From positions 1-44,507 of IMG/VR virus record IMGVR_UViG_3300020467_000009: a stretch of 44,507 nt of DNA. The stretch is one strand, 5' to 3'. Position numbers and translations under genes: made by a program. The notes under the pieces were generated by a model. That model was given only the letters and a program-made list of their open reading frames with translations. It did not search any database and had not been told where the DNA came from. The DNA is from a virus. Shown one piece after another: positions 18,729-41,697 of the stretch (positions are counted from its first letter, which is position 1; every line of letters begins with the position of its first letter).

Positions 18729-19199
18729 ATGCTTTTGCTGTTAAAGAAAAAGAAGATAATCAAGATCTTGAAAAGTGTGATACCTGTGGTCGTATTAAGC
18801 TCACTGAATGCACCTGTAGAAGCCGTACCTGTAGTTCCCAACTTTCAGACTGGTAGTCTTACTTCTCATACAGAGACTACTTCTACGGTCACAGAAACCA
18901 TAAATGTCATTGATTATCAGACTGGGTGGCAATATACCGTAACAGGTAATAACATTAGTACAGATGCGAGTAGCTTGGTTCCTCCAGCTCAGAGTGTTAC
19001 ACAGTCAGTTAATGGTGTAAATTCGACGTGGACAAATCTAGATACAACCAACATGCCCAACTTCACGGTTACGGATTCAAGCAAGCCGTGGCAACTCACT
19101 ACGACTCTCAGTCAGCCAGGATTAAAATCTCAGACAATAATACAAAGAACAACAGAGATAACTTCAGTCACAGACACGGTTTCAACCTTCAGTCAGTAA
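18729..19199 (+). CDS. Secreted protein, second of three
   Basis: 156 residues. Basic start followed by a hydrophobic signal (LKSVIPVVVLSSLNAPVEA). The mature part is Thr/Ser-rich and beta, with repeated segments rich in Thr-Glu-Thr (TETTSTVTETINVIDY, and RTTEITSVTDTVSTF at the end). A different frame of the first 128 bases also encodes a 47-residue Cys-rich ORF (18713-18856). I keep the secreted frame because it runs on and resembles its neighbours. Function unknown. Confidence 0.65.
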   Translation: MLLLLKKKKIIKILKSVIPVVVLSSLNAPVEAVPVVPNFQTGSLTSHTETTSTVTETINVIDYQTGWQYTVTGNNISTDASSLVPPAQSVTQSVNGVNSTWTNLDTTNMPNFTVTDSSKPWQLTTTLSQPGLKSQTIIQRTTEITSVTDTVSTFSQ

Positions 19200-19840
19200 A
19201 ATATTTACTCTTAGCTTTAAATATATTTAGTGCTCCTATCTATGCAAACGAAGTAGGAGGAGTGTCCGCAACGGCAAATCCTGTGGCAAATTCCAGTGGT
19301 TCGGTATCCAATTTAGCCGTCCAAAATTTATCGGGTCCTTATATGACGAATACTCACGGAAATGGCGTTTCCTGTCAGGGATCTACTCTAACTATTACTC
19401 CTTTTACAACATTACAAAATTCATGGAAAGATCCTTATGAATATTCATATCAAGATCCAGTATTTGATAATTCAGATACTAATAATGATGGGGTATTAGA
19501 TAATCCAGGATCTGTGCTTTATTACAAACCTACCAGAACAGGTCAAAAATCTAATCATAGTATTGGATGGGGCATCAGTATGAATATAACCATACCACTG
19601 GACAAACGTCACAATGAGGGCTGTTTGGCTGCTGCTAACACTCAGAATGAATTGAATAAACAACTATTAGCTAATAAAAGATTAGACTTTGAAATGGCAA
19701 GATTAAAACATTGTGCGGAGCAGAAAAGATTAGGAGTTACCTTTCATCCATCGAGTCCAGCTGCTCAGATATGTTCAGATATTGTAGTTGCAAATCCTCA
19801 TGGAGTTATTCCTAATCATCAGCACGAGATTCCGAAATAA
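19028..19840 (+). CDS. Secreted protein, third of three, start uncertain
   Basis: The frame runs from ATG 19028, but the first ~57 codons lie inside the previous gene and are unlike a signal peptide. A signal sequence (KYLLLALNIFSAPIYA) begins at about 19199, exactly where the previous gene stops, yet no ATG, GTG or TTG is near it; the only in-frame alternative is a GTG near 19088. A non-standard start or a frameshift from the previous gene is possible. The mature part has VGGVSATANPVANSSGSVSN, an acidic DNSDTNNDGVLDNPG loop like a calcium-binding turn, and a Cys/Arg-rich helical end. Converges with 19812-20537 with 29 bases of overlap. Confidence 0.6.
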   Translation: MDKSRYNQHAQLHGYGFKQAVATHYDSQSARIKISDNNTKNNRDNFSHRHGFNLQSVKYLLLALNIFSAPIYANEVGGVSATANPVANSSGSVSNLAVQNLSGPYMTNTHGNGVSCQGSTLTITPFTTLQNSWKDPYEYSYQDPVFDNSDTNNDGVLDNPGSVLYYKPTRTGQKSNHSIGWGISMNITIPLDKRHNEGCLAAANTQNELNKQLLANKRLDFEMARLKHCAEQKRLGVTFHPSSPAAQICSDIVVANPHGVIPNHQHEIPK

Positions 19841-35233: not shown

Positions 35234-35241
35234 ACCTCCTT
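35234..35241 (-). promoter_or_regulatory. Full-length Shine-Dalgarno for the 34410-35225 gene
   Basis: AAGGAGGT on the leftward strand with an 8-base spacer. It is the strongest ribosome site I noticed in the window and overlaps the capsid gene stop. Confidence 0.7.
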
Positions 35242-36385
35242 ATTCTGTAATTGTAAAGGAAGTGGTAATGAAGTCCTTATTCAAGTTCGCAAAGCCAGCA
35301 TAAAGTTGCCATATAAGAATAATGAATCTTGAGAAATCATCATTATTATTAATTAAAACTTGAGCGTTAGGACCACCGATACCAACACCGATAGCTTGAG
35401 GACCAAAGAACAATCCAGCAGGAGTTGTTTTTGATACTGCACCGTTTCCATCTCCAATATCGACCGTAATTGTCTTAGATGGGAAGTTTGTAGATTCAAA
35501 GAATCTTACTCCTTCAAACACGAATCCAGAAGGCATAACTGGTTCACCAGCTACGAACTGAGCTTGTCCATACTGTCCACCAGCATAGATTGCTTGGTTA
35601 GGAGCCATTGCACCCATTAAAGGTGAACCCTGACCCATTCCTGGATATCTTGCTACTTCACGGAAGCCTTGATCGGCTCTTAGATCTTTCATAAATGAAG
35701 GATCTGCTATACAACGATAATATCCGTCTGCGAATACTGGTACGTGACGCTTTCTTAGACTCTTAACTACCTCAAGGAGGTCAGTCTTAACATTGAACTT
35801 AAAACGCTCAGAAGCAAATTCTGTAGCAGAGTAAGCATTCAATTGTGTAGAGCTAGACTTTGTCTTACCATTTGGATAGTAATAACCACCCTGTGTATCA
35901 GATGCAGCACCACGAGATTCAGATTTGAATAGTTCATCAATGAATACTCTGTCTCTCCATCTACGGTAATCGTCTAACAAGGTCAACGAACCAATTGATT
36001 GATGGAACATATTTAAGTTTCCAGTATCAAGCAATAAACGCTGAGCTGTCATTAGGGTTTCTCTAGCAATCTTAAATGTGCTAGGAAGAGTTGTATTATT
36101 AGGGTCAGCAGGACCTGTATATTCCCTAAGAGATACAAGTACTTTGTCCTTTACGATAGATCTGCTGTTTGCTGTGCCAATTGTCTGGTCTTGAGTCCTC
36201 TCTCTTGAGGTCTTAGTTCCAGGATTGCCAAAGAAACGATAGCGGTCTAACTGAACGGTCTGACCTGGCTGCTTGGTGAAGTCATGTACGACCACAGGCT
36301 CGGAAGCCATTTCTACGATATACGCAGGGTGGGGCCTATACAGCTCAGCACCAAGAAGCTTCGGAAAATCGTTATCTATAAACAT
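35240..36385 (-). CDS. Major capsid protein candidate (HK97-like fold)
   Basis: 381 residues. The N-terminal half (PAYIVEMASEPVVVHDFTKQ, GQTVQLDRYRFFGNPGTKTS, then QTIGTANSRSIVKDKVLVSL) followed by FKIARETLMTAQRLLLDTGN and FADGYYRCIADPSFMKDLRA is the order of HK97-type major capsid proteins, and resembles the N4-gp56 group, where a DGYYxCIxxPxxxxDLRA block is characteristic. The name is by pattern. Upstream are possible promoter boxes (36467-36497); downstream comes an abundant virion protein. Size and place after scaffold and portal support it. Confidence 0.8.
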   Translation of the reverse strand: MFIDNDFPKLLGAELYRPHPAYIVEMASEPVVVHDFTKQPGQTVQLDRYRFFGNPGTKTSRERTQDQTIGTANSRSIVKDKVLVSLREYTGPADPNNTTLPSTFKIARETLMTAQRLLLDTGNLNMFHQSIGSLTLLDDYRRWRDRVFIDELFKSESRGAASDTQGGYYYPNGKTKSSSTQLNAYSATEFASERFKFNVKTDLLEVVKSLRKRHVPVFADGYYRCIADPSFMKDLRADQGFREVARYPGMGQGSPLMGAMAPNQAIYAGGQYGQAQFVAGEPVMPSGFVFEGVRFFESTNFPSKTITVDIGDGNGAVSKTTPAGLFFGPQAIGVGIGGPNAQVLINNNDDFSRFIILIWQLYAGFANLNKDFITTSFTITE

Positions 36386-37210: not shown

Positions 37211-38215
37211 TTATTCCATTACGAGAAGTTTCTCACGGAATACTTGAGGATTTTGCTGTGCAGCATTTAAATATCTCCAAGCATTTTGTGGATCTCTATC
37301 GGCTGCTCCACCGAAATCTTTCCAAAAGTCCTGTGAATTTGCAGGAGCTTGTGGCTGTGGAGGAACAGGCATCTGTGGTCTTGCAGGAGCTTGTGCTTGA
37401 GCTTGACCTTGTGCAGCAGCTGGGTTAGGTAGCTGTTGACCTGCAAAAGTAGGAGCTTGTGGATTTGCAGGAGCTTCATCCTCTACTGGATAAGGTCCAT
37501 TCTCTCCAAAGAACTCACATGTATAGTCAGCTAAAACATCAGGATCTGTAAGAATCTGCTCATATGCTTTATGCTCTGTTGACATCTCTTGTAGTAGATT
37601 TACTGCTTCTTGTAGTTGCTGATTTGTTTGAACTAAAGAATCTTCAATCTTACAAGCATAATCATTAAGAATTGCAGGAGCATCTGCACCAAAATGATTA
37701 ATTACTTCAAGACTTGTTTCGCTTACTCCGTTTGCTAGGAGTTGGTCGTTGGTTATCCCTTGAGAAGTTTGGGAAGAGTTGTTGGAGTATGCCTGGTTGC
37801 TGTTGCTCGAAGGCATATAAGTCTGCTGACCCTGATTGCTGTATGGGGTTGTTTGTTGGAATCCGTAATTGGCTTGGTCGGCTGTTTGGCTCTGAGTCGA
37901 CTGTTGACCCTGGAACGGGAATTGGACTGGTGAACTCAGGAGTCCTACCACCTTCGTGAATGCGTCCTTGTATGGGTTCTCCGCTTGTGGGGCTGCCTGT
38001 TGTGGCTGGGGGTTGTACTGAGTAGGGTTGTATTGGATCCCTTGTACCCCCATCTGGGCTTGAGCCACTGGAGCTGGAGCCTGTTGGGGTTGGGAAGGAG
38101 CCACCCATTGGGAATTCCCTGAAACCGCTTGTGTCTGAGGAGCTACGTAGCTGCTCTGCTGGGTCGGGGATGTCTGGGGTGCTGATTGGGTCTGCTGAGC
38201 GGTAGCGTCCTGCAT
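37211..38215 (-). CDS. Scaffold-like protein, first half encoded inside the portal gene
   Basis: 334 residues. The N-terminal ~170 residues are Gln/Pro/Ala/Ser-rich low complexity (QTQSAPQTSPTQQSSYVAPQ). The middle (SLVQTNQQLQEAVNLLQEMS, TEHKAYEQILTDPDVLADYT) is a coiled coil and the end has KDFGGAADRDPQNAWRYLNA. Scaffold-like by position (between portal and capsid), coiled-coil core and acidic/polar linkers. A good ribosome site is 6 bases upstream of its ATG. Its first 509 bases lie within the portal gene in the +1 frame. The low-complexity part in both frames, and the GC rise, suggest one sequence serving two proteins. Confidence 0.7.
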   Translation of the reverse strand: MQDATAQQTQSAPQTSPTQQSSYVAPQTQAVSGNSQWVAPSQPQQAPAPVAQAQMGVQGIQYNPTQYNPQPQQAAPQAENPYKDAFTKVVGLLSSPVQFPFQGQQSTQSQTADQANYGFQQTTPYSNQGQQTYMPSSNSNQAYSNNSSQTSQGITNDQLLANGVSETSLEVINHFGADAPAILNDYACKIEDSLVQTNQQLQEAVNLLQEMSTEHKAYEQILTDPDVLADYTCEFFGENGPYPVEDEAPANPQAPTFAGQQLPNPAAAQGQAQAQAPARPQMPVPPQPQAPANSQDFWKDFGGAADRDPQNAWRYLNAAQQNPQVFREKLLVME

Positions 38216-39947
38216 AAGTTACCTCTTTTTGTAAACTTTCTAATGTTCGATATAAGAATGGAGTTAAATCCAAACGTGGATCAGCTGCCATCGGTAAGTT
38301 AGGCTGCTGAGGATGTGGGGTTCGCATTTCCTGATTTATTAAGTCAATAAATGCGGAATATGCCCTCTGTACTTCACCTACCATTCTAAACGGAAAACCA
38401 GAAAGCATCGCTGCAATTTCGTCGTCAGTTTTCGAAGGAAATAAGTACTTCAGTGCTTCTATACTATCAACCCCCAATTCTTGAAGGTTTCTAGTAAAAA
38501 TGGATTGATTGAGTTTATCTTGAGCTGTATCTTCATAAACAGGACCCATCCATCTCCAAAGAACTGTTCTATCTCCATCAGGTGCTAGTCCTAATACACC
38601 ATCAGGAATCTCTCTTGTTTCTACTGCAGTATCAATAGCCTGTTGAAGTTTTTGTTCATATTTAATTTTTTGCTTTTCATACTTTTCTAAAGCTTTAGGA
38701 TCTTCTGTATTTTCTGGTAATTCAGGATATTTTATTCCTGAAGAAAACGCTAATGATTTTCTAAAAATTTGTTCTTCTTGGAAAATAATTAATTCAAAAA
38801 CTTTACAAATTCCATACTGATAAATCTGTAAACATTTTTTCTTAGCAGTAGCACTTACACGTCCATACGCAGATTTAATTTCTGTAGCTGTTACGTTTGT
38901 GATACTTAAATCATCTATACCTCCAAGAGCTAATCTAATTTCACTTCTTAATTGTTCTGAGAATCTTGCTTGATCAGAACTGACAGCATTTGGAGTTATA
39001 AAGCCTACTCTGTCAGATGGCTCTAAATTAGCTATAACTCTTGGAACTCTCATTCCACTACCTGGCCTTCCTGTATAACCTGGCTGTTGTCTTGTTATTG
39101 GATCTTGTTTATATGTAGAGCTAAATAAATCTACATTTGAAGCAAAACCTGATTGACTAGATATACTTGGTCTTTGTGCAGTCTCAGAATCACTTTCTAC
39201 AATATCTTGTTTTGGTCTAGATGATAGAAGTGTTGGATTACCAAAGAATGATAAGTTTGCTCTTATATTCTTAACCATTTCATCATGAGCAGAAATCTGA
39301 TTAGCAATAAAATCAAATTCACCTGAACCATCTGTACCAAATGCATCAGGATTATTAAATACTTCAACACATGGAATAAACTCCATAGTATTTTCTACAA
39401 TTTTTTTATCAAAAGTCGCAAAATTTGTATTTTCTTGATCAAAGGTTATTTCTTGTTCTGCATGATATTCTTCTATTTCTGTAGCAGTAATTTTTAATCT
39501 CATATATCTTTTATCAGTATTTAAACCAACTCCAGCAAAACCTTTAGAAGATCTAACTTTATATGGATAAATAATAATTACTTCTTCTAGTTCCCCTTCA
39601 GGTGAATAATATGTCCTATAAGAATCTTTATTAAACCAATAAATTCTATAAGATTTTTTGGTTGGTCTTATATAAAATAATCCTTTTCCGTATGATAAGA
39701 ATCTATCCCATATTGCATCTAATCTTGCATCTAATTGATTAAATTTTATAACTTGCTGAATGAAATCAAATCTTTGTGTTCCAAAATTATCTTGTTGTGG
39801 ATAAAACTCAACTCCCTGTCTTATACCAAACATCTTCATTTGGGATAAGTGAGAACTAACCAACATTGTGTCTGCTGTTCCTTTTCCGTCACGAGTAATG
39901 ACGGATTTAATCATTTCATCTAGAACAGCTTTACTATTACTCTCCAT
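37707..39947 (-). CDS. Portal protein
   Basis: 746 residues. The first ~570 form a portal-like body: FIQQVIKFNQLDARLDAIWD, RFLSYGKGLFYIRPTKKSYR, ISAHDEMVKNIRANLSFFGN, then KPSDRVGF-like and SDQARFSEQLRSEIRLALGG, ITNVTATEIKSAYGRVSATA. It lies downstream of the terminase genes and upstream of the scaffold candidate, the usual order. Large, in the size range of podovirus-type portals (T7-like are ~530, N4 ~760). The C-terminal ~170 residues (from about 578) are Pro/Ser/Gly/Arg-rich and disordered, ending KRSKRNKS, and are the part that overlaps the 334-aa gene. Confidence 0.85.
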   Translation of the reverse strand: MESNSKAVLDEMIKSVITRDGKGTADTMLVSSHLSQMKMFGIRQGVEFYPQQDNFGTQRFDFIQQVIKFNQLDARLDAIWDRFLSYGKGLFYIRPTKKSYRIYWFNKDSYRTYYSPEGELEEVIIIYPYKVRSSKGFAGVGLNTDKRYMRLKITATEIEEYHAEQEITFDQENTNFATFDKKIVENTMEFIPCVEVFNNPDAFGTDGSGEFDFIANQISAHDEMVKNIRANLSFFGNPTLLSSRPKQDIVESDSETAQRPSISSQSGFASNVDLFSSTYKQDPITRQQPGYTGRPGSGMRVPRVIANLEPSDRVGFITPNAVSSDQARFSEQLRSEIRLALGGIDDLSITNVTATEIKSAYGRVSATAKKKCLQIYQYGICKVFELIIFQEEQIFRKSLAFSSGIKYPELPENTEDPKALEKYEKQKIKYEQKLQQAIDTAVETREIPDGVLGLAPDGDRTVLWRWMGPVYEDTAQDKLNQSIFTRNLQELGVDSIEALKYLFPSKTDDEIAAMLSGFPFRMVGEVQRAYSAFIDLINQEMRTPHPQQPNLPMAADPRLDLTPFLYRTLESLQKEVTYAGRYRSADPISTPDIPDPAEQLRSSSDTSGFREFPMGGSFPTPTGSSSSGSSPDGGTRDPIQPYSVQPPATTGSPTSGEPIQGRIHEGGRTPEFTSPIPVPGSTVDSEPNSRPSQLRIPTNNPIQQSGSADLYAFEQQQPGILQQLFPNFSRDNQRPTPSKRSKRNKS
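38222..38226 (-). promoter_or_regulatory. Shine-Dalgarno inside the portal gene for the scaffold gene
   Basis: AGAGG, 6 bases before the ATG at 38215 on the leftward strand. It supports the start that gives the 509-base overlap. Confidence 0.65.
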
Positions 39948-40173: not shown

Positions 40174-41697
40174 TCAATACTCTAACTCAAGTTTTCCACG
40201 AGTCATTAACCCATTACATAGCCAAACTAGAGCATCTACGCAATCATCATGTGAGCTAACCCCAAAATTAACTATCTCATCTGTAAGTGCTCCAAACTTA
40301 CGATACTTATTAAAAATAATTTTTCTTTGTTCAAAAAGTCCCATTATTCCTCGAAATCTTGCAACTTTATCTCCACGGAATCCTTTTACTGGATGCCAAA
40401 TTAAATTATACAAACCTTGCTCAGTTTGACATATTCTTTTAAAGTCTGCTTCTAAAGAAGCCTGATATGCAACAGCCTCAGACCATACATGTAAAGAAGT
40501 TCCTGTAGGAAAATAATTTTTACCATCTTTCATAATTACACCCCACTCTTCCATCATTTCCATTAAAAGTTCTAATTTTTCTAAATTTCCCATCACCCTA
40601 ACTCGTTTGCAATCAATAATATGAATCTTATCTTTTACTCTGCCACCCATAACAAAAACTGTATAATCATTTCTTTCTCTAACTCCAGCTGATAAATCTA
40701 CCCCCACTCCTAAAGCATCAAAATCTGTGGATATATTTCCTTTAACAATTAAATCTGGAGATAAAGATAGTTCACTAGTTTGTACAACTTGATTCTGATA
40801 TTGATAACTAAATGCTATTGGAGCTATTCTTCTTCTTTGACTTAGATAATCTAAAGACCACATATCAGGCCAGTATGATACTTCTTCTCCTTCTTTATCT
40901 ACAGTTATTGCAGATTGGACTATTTGTTTCCAACCATTAGCAGCAAGAAAAGTTCTGCTATGAATATCATCATGTCTAAATCTAGTACCTAAACAAATAG
41001 CTCTTGCACCTTGAAACATAGTAGGAACAATAACTGCATTCCAATTATCTTCCATAGCTTGGCGAATATCTTTATTTTTAATATCATCAGCACTTTTAAT
41101 AGCATCATCAATTATACAAAGATGAGATCTTTTTGAAGTAACAGCACCTTTTAATCCTGCACAACAAACACTAAATTCTTCTTCACCAGTGGATTTTATT
41201 CCTGCAAATTTCCAATCTATACTCCAATATTCATTTGAATTAATTCCTTTAGCAATCTTTACTGTTGGAAAAATTTCTTTATAAATTTTACTTTCTTCTA
41301 TAATTCTTTTAATTGCTGCACTCTTTGGTCTAGCAACATCAACTGTATAAGAAATATATAAAATTTTTAAAGGCATTTTATTTAAAGCATGTATTCCAAT
41401 AGCCCATGCTGTATATAAACCTAATACGGTAGATTTTGCAGATCCTCTAGGAGCCAATATGTCAACATTAGGACCTGCAATACCCTTAAGACATTCACTA
41501 TCATCTCCTGTACATAAAAATTTGTGCCATTCAAGGTGGTGTTTCGCAGGAGGTTTTCCCCCTACAACATCACAAAAATATGCAAAACTTTTTCTAGCCC
41601 TTTCTACATCAACATTAGAAGTTTTTTTGACTACTTGTTGTTTTGCAGCTGCTCTGGCTGTGCGTCTATAAACGCTGTAAATACTTGTACCTGCCAT
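40174..41697 (-). CDS. terL: Terminase large subunit
   Basis: 507 residues. N-terminal ATPase: Walker A APRGSAKST (82-90), Walker B LCIIDD (193-198), coupling motif CLGTR (235-239). C-terminal RuvC-like nuclease: D334 in GVGVDLSAG, then DYTVFVMGG, and D484/D485 with D488 in SSHDDCVDALVW. This is the motor that cuts concatemeric DNA and pumps it through the portal into the head. The upstream 161-aa gene is a candidate small subunit. Length and motif order are standard. Confidence 0.95.
   Translation of the reverse strand: MAGTSIYSVYRRTARAAAKQQVVKKTSNVDVERARKSFAYFCDVVGGKPPAKHHLEWHKFLCTGDDSECLKGIAGPNVDILAPRGSAKSTVLGLYTAWAIGIHALNKMPLKILYISYTVDVARPKSAAIKRIIEESKIYKEIFPTVKIAKGINSNEYWSIDWKFAGIKSTGEEEFSVCCAGLKGAVTSKRSHLCIIDDAIKSADDIKNKDIRQAMEDNWNAVIVPTMFQGARAICLGTRFRHDDIHSRTFLAANGWKQIVQSAITVDKEGEEVSYWPDMWSLDYLSQRRRIAPIAFSYQYQNQVVQTSELSLSPDLIVKGNISTDFDALGVGVDLSAGVRERNDYTVFVMGGRVKDKIHIIDCKRVRVMGNLEKLELLMEMMEEWGVIMKDGKNYFPTGTSLHVWSEAVAYQASLEADFKRICQTEQGLYNLIWHPVKGFRGDKVARFRGIMGLFEQRKIIFNKYRKFGALTDEIVNFGVSSHDDCVDALVWLCNGLMTRGKLELEY

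Follow-up and report, generated by a model that had tools for sequence, protein, structure and literature searches.

In a 44.5-kb virus contig (IMGVR_UViG_3300020467_000009, positions 1–44,507, the whole of which is hereafter called the window), the end of the portal protein gene and the beginning of the gene for a probable scaffolding protein occupy the same 509 nt of the minus strand (37707–38215) in two different reading frames. Comparison with relatives, in which both frames are open and under purifying selection, indicates that this overlap is very probably a genuine dual-coding region with internal initiation of the scaffold. Out-of-frame overlap as such is known in viruses; the length and conservation of this one are unusual.

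The head-gene locus and its products

The minus strand of the window carries, in order, the terminase large subunit gene (40174–41697; PF17289, E 6e-9), a 61-codon ORF, the portal gene (37707–39947, 746 aa), the probable scaffold gene (37211–38215, 334 aa), two small genes and the major capsid protein gene (35240–36385; phrog_1357 major head protein, E 2.4e-14). A preliminary description of this DNA had reported a 509-base same-strand overlap with the scaffold in the +1 frame of the portal, and an ORF check found its coordinates to be exact. Portal residues 578–746 and scaffold residues 1–169 lie inside the overlap, in which codon position 1 of the scaffold corresponds to portal position 2 and the scaffold wobble position coincides with portal position 1. 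The overlap had also been described as richer in G+C than the DNA around it, which is correct (0.47–0.58 vs. 0.26–0.40 across most of the portal core), although values of up to 0.515 were also observed in a Q/P/A-rich, non-overlapping part of the scaffold gene (37300–37499), and raised GC alone is thus no proof of dual coding.

The product of the gene at 37707–39947 is a portal protein, as confirmed by its predicted fold. It matches phrog_20475 (virion structural protein, E 1.6e-211), and a Foldseek search with its AlphaFold model, which is of moderate confidence (pTM 0.46), revealed T7 gp8 (6qxm, E 7e-10) as the best match. All 50 matches listed were portal proteins or portal/tail complexes, and the earlier assignment of this gene is therefore borne out by the match of its predicted fold to solved phage portals. 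Residues 578–746, which are encoded by the overlap, are predicted to be disordered, mainly except for a helix at residues 707–724 (37776–37829, minus strand) within the GSADL...GILQQLFPNF stretch. This tail is rich in P, G, S and R and is usually basic at its end; GSAD, PGST and the predicted helix are conserved in it, and G706, A708, D709, L710 and P718 are invariant or near-invariant across 48 portals.

The downstream gene had been called scaffold-like, an identity that we consider probable from gene order and predicted helical architecture. The gene lies between the portal and major capsid genes, and its AlphaFold model (pTM 0.28) contains a predicted helical core (residues 179–236) and a helical C-terminal region (residues 294–332). 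The part encoded by the overlap is predicted to be disordered, mainly except for a helix at residues 81–93 (37937–37975, minus strand), which lies within NPYKDAFTKVVGLL in the N-terminal region and recurs as NPW/Y-x-x-A-F/M... in each of the three clades of relatives described below. The earlier identification thus draws on gene position and predicted architecture, and not on homology or fold: profile and fold searches with the scaffold gave no family, PDB, PHROG or T7 gp9 match, and there was no profile-level sequence match of the window proteins to T7 gp8 or gp9. Scaffolds diverge fast, and missing homology is therefore weak evidence. One strong BFVD match was obtained (A0A0C4K645, 133 aa, 37% over the C-terminal part), which was rejected as an identifier of the scaffold because its length is that of a fragment annotated in the Synechococcus phage S-EIV1, and it is probably that same protein. 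As noted in the preliminary description, both products of the overlap are of low complexity, which would allow one DNA to serve both.

Relatives and selection in the two reading frames

When the portal was searched against 50,697 phage records, the sole match was Synechococcus phage S-EIV1 (KJ410740; 52% identity), which is the only cultured relative found. No annotated phage relatives beyond S-EIV1 were found via the portal, scaffold or capsid protein, and terminase searches gave matches elsewhere at only about 20–30%. Among IMG/VR sequences, 555 confirmed stretches are related to the window portal and at least 598 to the S-EIV1 portal, and a motif scan brought to light a third clade, later enlarged, with portals about 46% identical to those of the window and S-EIV1. 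The overlap belongs to a widespread aquatic virus lineage related to a Synechococcus phage. In addition, two sequences filed under a Bacteroidetes metagenome-assembled genome (QQUU01000043.1 and QQUU01000104.1; L163 and L164) encode this phage portal (75–77% identity) and are probably mis-binned phage DNA.

A homologous scaffold ORF is present in S-EIV1 and in the three clades, from which 392 intact loci yielded 300 distinct overlap sequences of 464–677 nt. Whether relatives keep both frames open had been put forward as a check on dual coding, and all of them do (300/300); the scaffold frame opens with ATG in 300/300 sequences as well, and the third frame is open in 0/300. Relatives with stop codons in the +1 frame, which had been named as evidence against the overlap, were also sought, and none was found except for a few damaged or truncated contigs. 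Four of these appear to be damaged sequence, namely one contig with an internal deletion (L032/L174), one with a single nonsense codon upstream of the overlap (L016), one with a stop near the contig end (L196) and one with many frameshifting indels across portal and scaffold (L372), the last of which has the look of sequencing error left uncorrected. No lineage without the overlap came out of two motif scans and a query with clade 3, which returned the same three clades only.

S-EIV1 has the same two genes as the window (portal AHV82224, and AHV82225) in the same +1 overlap, which is 554 nt long. Its downstream frame starts with MQDATVQ at portal YAGRYR, as that of the window does with MQDATAQ, and the start is preceded by AAAAGGAGATGAGTT. 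In GenBank, AHV82225 (59863–60264, 133 aa) begins past the portal stop at 59840. The intact downstream ORF starts at 59287 and encodes 325 aa; the entry thus misses about 190 codons of AHV82225, and the overlap is therefore unrecorded there. The published S-EIV1 reference is thus wrong here, with more than half of the probable scaffold protein missing. Gene-calling programs with a penalty on overlaps may cut the scaffold gene short throughout the lineage.

The major capsid gene of S-EIV1 is an open plus-strand frame (record 60859–61986, L001:11323–12450) whose product is 72% identical to the window major capsid protein, and over this gene GenBank records a minus-strand ORF (60784–61545) and a partial ORF (61540–62010). 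The S-EIV1 terminase large subunit (846 aa; record 54080–56620, L001:4544–7084) contains an intein (PF14890, E 1.4e-11, residues 202–526), unlike the window terminase large subunit (507 aa), which is uninterrupted.

The existing S-EIV1 annotation (59863–60264) would agree with a reading in which coding is confined to the portal frame, chance composition has left the +1 frame open, and the start of the downstream gene falls past the portal stop. Shuffles of the window portal also leave room for it: the +1 frame stayed open in 4% of trials under synonymous reshuffling with core codon usage, and in 34% when the codons of the overlap were permuted. The open +1 frame in the window alone is not very improbable and could be chance, and it is therefore the comparison of relatives that decides the case. 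There, the +1 frame is not merely open but ATG-started in every distinct sequence, and the substitution pattern is also at odds with coding by the portal frame alone. In the window clade, portal differences per site at codon positions 1/2/3 change from 0.076/0.037/0.324 in the core to 0.178/0.078/0.165 in the overlap, and in the S-EIV1 clade from 0.084/0.039/0.375 to 0.155/0.053/0.088. Substitution at the portal wobble position thus drops 2- to 4-fold in the overlap and that at the scaffold wobble position rises, so that this analysis of relatives, which had been suggested in the preliminary description, gave the pattern that dual coding predicts.

In an overlap-aware count, the values of which are approximate because sequence pairs are non-independent and the bootstrap was over columns only, the dN/dS of the scaffold frame in the overlap was 0.33, 0.24 and 0.27 in the window, S-EIV1 and third clades, respectively, vs. 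control values of 0.67, 0.75 and 0.69 from a pseudo-scaffold frame within the portal core. The corresponding values for the portal frame, equally approximate, were 0.44, 0.50 and 0.20, and the non-overlapping scaffold, read in a pseudo-portal frame, gave 1.42 and 1.10 in the window and S-EIV1 clades. As the dN/dS values lie below those of the non-coding control frames, both frames of the overlap are under purifying selection. Considering the scaffold-frame values of 0.24–0.33 against 0.67–0.75 in the control, together with the conserved Shine-Dalgarno and TAT codons described below, we regard coding by the portal frame alone as extremely improbable.

The opposite reading, in which the overlap is coding in the scaffold frame alone and the portal is functionally complete near residue 580, its tail being tolerated read-through, draws on the fact that the portion of the portal modelled with confidence stops before the tail, and on a portal frame slightly less constrained than the scaffold frame in two of the three clades. 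Yet the portal-frame dN/dS of 0.20–0.50 compares with 1.1–1.4 in the control frame, and the portal frame is open in 300/300 sequences, whereas scaffold-preserving shuffles left it open in only 0–11% of trials overall, and in 0.08% or fewer of those that preserved the window scaffold protein. With GSAD, PGST and the predicted helix conserved in the portal tail as well, this reading seems very unlikely. The dual coding proposed in the preliminary description is the reading supported by both the open frames of relatives and the purifying selection in the two frames.

The internal start of the scaffold gene

The scaffold start ATG (38213–38215, minus strand) is formed by the portal Tyr578 codon TAT and the next G. 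The AGAGG that had been noticed six bases upstream of it, inside the portal gene, is seen at 38222–38226, as part of a putative Shine-Dalgarno sequence (AAGAGGT, 38221–38227, minus strand) within the portal codons for Lys-Glu-Val. The spelling of these codons is strongly biased among relatives. At the Shine-Dalgarno site, Lys-Glu is spelled AAA-GAG or AAG-GAA in 116/117 window-clade genes; AAA-GAA, which would abolish the Shine-Dalgarno sequence, occurs in 1/117, as against about 42–48% in the portal core, where it is the commonest spelling. In the S-EIV1 clade, AAG-GAG is used in 106/106 Lys-Glu sites there vs. 3/112 in the core. Likewise, the Tyr codon at the start is TAT in 158/158 homologs checked, compared with 71% (window clade) and 52% (S-EIV1 clade) of core Tyr codons, and clade 3 has its scaffold ATG at the following portal tyrosine, 12 nt downstream. 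At the level of codon choice, it is thus shown that the predicted ribosome-binding site and start are kept by synonymous portal codons, beyond the needs of the portal protein.

Predicted pairing with the 16S tail amounts to −7.1 kcal/mol (window) and −8.9 kcal/mol (S-EIV1) at the scaffold site, and is weaker at the portal's own site (−5.3 and −2.9 kcal/mol, respectively). The scaffold ribosome-binding site of clade 3 is weak (−3.8 kcal/mol). The internal ribosome-binding site of the preliminary description is thereby supported through its conserved Shine-Dalgarno codons, with the weak site of clade 3 as a qualification. Just upstream of the start, an in-frame stop TAA of the scaffold frame (38219–38221, minus strand) is conserved in the three clades (114/117, 106/107 and 7/8 sequences), so that the scaffold N-terminus cannot extend further at this place. 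This stop is conserved even though one clade has its ATG at a shifted position.

A programmed +1 frameshift in the overlap could in principle produce a portal–scaffold fusion and thus equip the portal with a small number of scaffold domains. The geometry permits this, the scaffold frame being +1 of the portal and open throughout the overlap, and the conserved stop before the ATG would confine the junction to the overlap; however, the conserved Shine-Dalgarno sequence and ATG offer a simpler route to the scaffold, and we consider such a frameshift highly improbable.

It had also been proposed that shared DNA fixes the dose of the two proteins. As stated, this is unlikely, since the two genes are each equipped with a start and a ribosome-binding site, the scaffold ATG is located about 500 nt ahead of the portal stop, and the copies needed are very unequal, with about 12 portal copies per head and hundreds of scaffold copies. 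A version compatible with dual coding is that the overlap, possibly among other roles, sets the portal:scaffold ratio by coupling, with portal translation opening or occluding the scaffold start. Each portal ribosome must traverse the scaffold start, and the arrangement is conserved; nevertheless, the required copy numbers differ more than tenfold, and the predicted unpaired probability of the scaffold start is 0.58, 0.42 and 0.47 vs. about 0.41 at random portal sites. The start region is thus not predicted to be unusually masked, so that unmasking is not needed, and coupling of this kind appears rather unlikely. The idea that the scaffold is regulated by RNA structure masking its start was likewise rejected, as the predicted unpaired probabilities give no support to it.

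A model for the overlap and its relation to known systems

Dual coding with internal initiation, our preferred reading, would be an old out-of-frame overlap in which the portal gene reaches about 170 codons into the scaffold gene. Both frames would be translated from one late message, and the scaffold would be initiated independently by the Shine-Dalgarno sequence and ATG buried in portal codons. The shared DNA would encode two flexible arms, each with one short predicted helix, i.e., a disordered P/G/S/R-rich C-terminal tail on the portal and a disordered Q/P/A/S-rich N-terminus on the scaffold. Less firmly than for dual coding itself, we infer that the portal tail most likely projects into the procapsid, making contact with scaffold or DNA in portal-nucleated assembly, and that the scaffold arm most likely acts inside the procapsid. 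A more specific proposal is that the disordered portal tail and the scaffold N-terminal arm bind each other during portal-nucleated head assembly and that what preserves the overlap is its action as a co-evolution lock, not compactness. We consider this unlikely; if true, any mutation in the overlap would strike both sides of one interface.

As to its origin, one gene probably grew into the other, via a lost portal stop or an upstream start, and the overlap was probably then fixed, both extensions having become useful. Codon usage gave no polarity as to which gene invaded, both frames being atypical in the overlap. The Q/P/A-rich composition, which is common to the non-overlapping scaffold, hints weakly at a greater age of the scaffold reading.

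The order of portal, scaffold and capsid genes is also that of T7 (genes 8/9) and P22 (genes 1/8), but the portal and scaffold genes of these phages do not overlap, being separated by gaps of 99 nt in T7 and 13 nt in P22. Lambda Rz/Rz1 are nested genes in different frames, but they are lysis genes. The lambda scaffold Nu3 is nested in the protease gene C in the same frame, and is thus not a case of out-of-frame coding; like the probable scaffold described here, it shares DNA with a head gene, and unlike it, it does so in frame.

Long out-of-frame overlaps in viruses, known as overprinting, have been reviewed (PMC8227390), and the reviewed cases resemble the present one in their same-strand, frame-shifted dual coding and compositionally biased products. 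In a survey of virus overlaps, +1 overlaps had a median length of 14 nt (IQR 8–26; PMC8903798), in agreement with the earlier remark that the window overlap is unusually long, and in another survey overlaps common to phage families at 95% identity reached at most 185 nt (PMC7017920). In comparison with these surveys, the overlaps described here measure 464–677 nt, lie in dsDNA phage head genes and are shared by clades at about 46% portal identity. No description of this portal/scaffold overlap was found in a search of openly available papers, a set to which the S-EIV1 genome paper does not belong, and in those papers an overlap of such length and conservation between head-assembly genes appears to be undescribed. 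Among dsDNA phage head genes, the locus provides a long, old and abundant example of dual coding in different frames, and its large natural alignment makes a good test bed for two essential proteins evolving under joint constraint.

A second, shorter overlap was observed elsewhere in the window, where the plus-strand ORFs 18729–19199 (DUF6322) and 19028–19840 (GTG start, 270 aa) share 172 nt, which may be a mere matter of start-codon choice.
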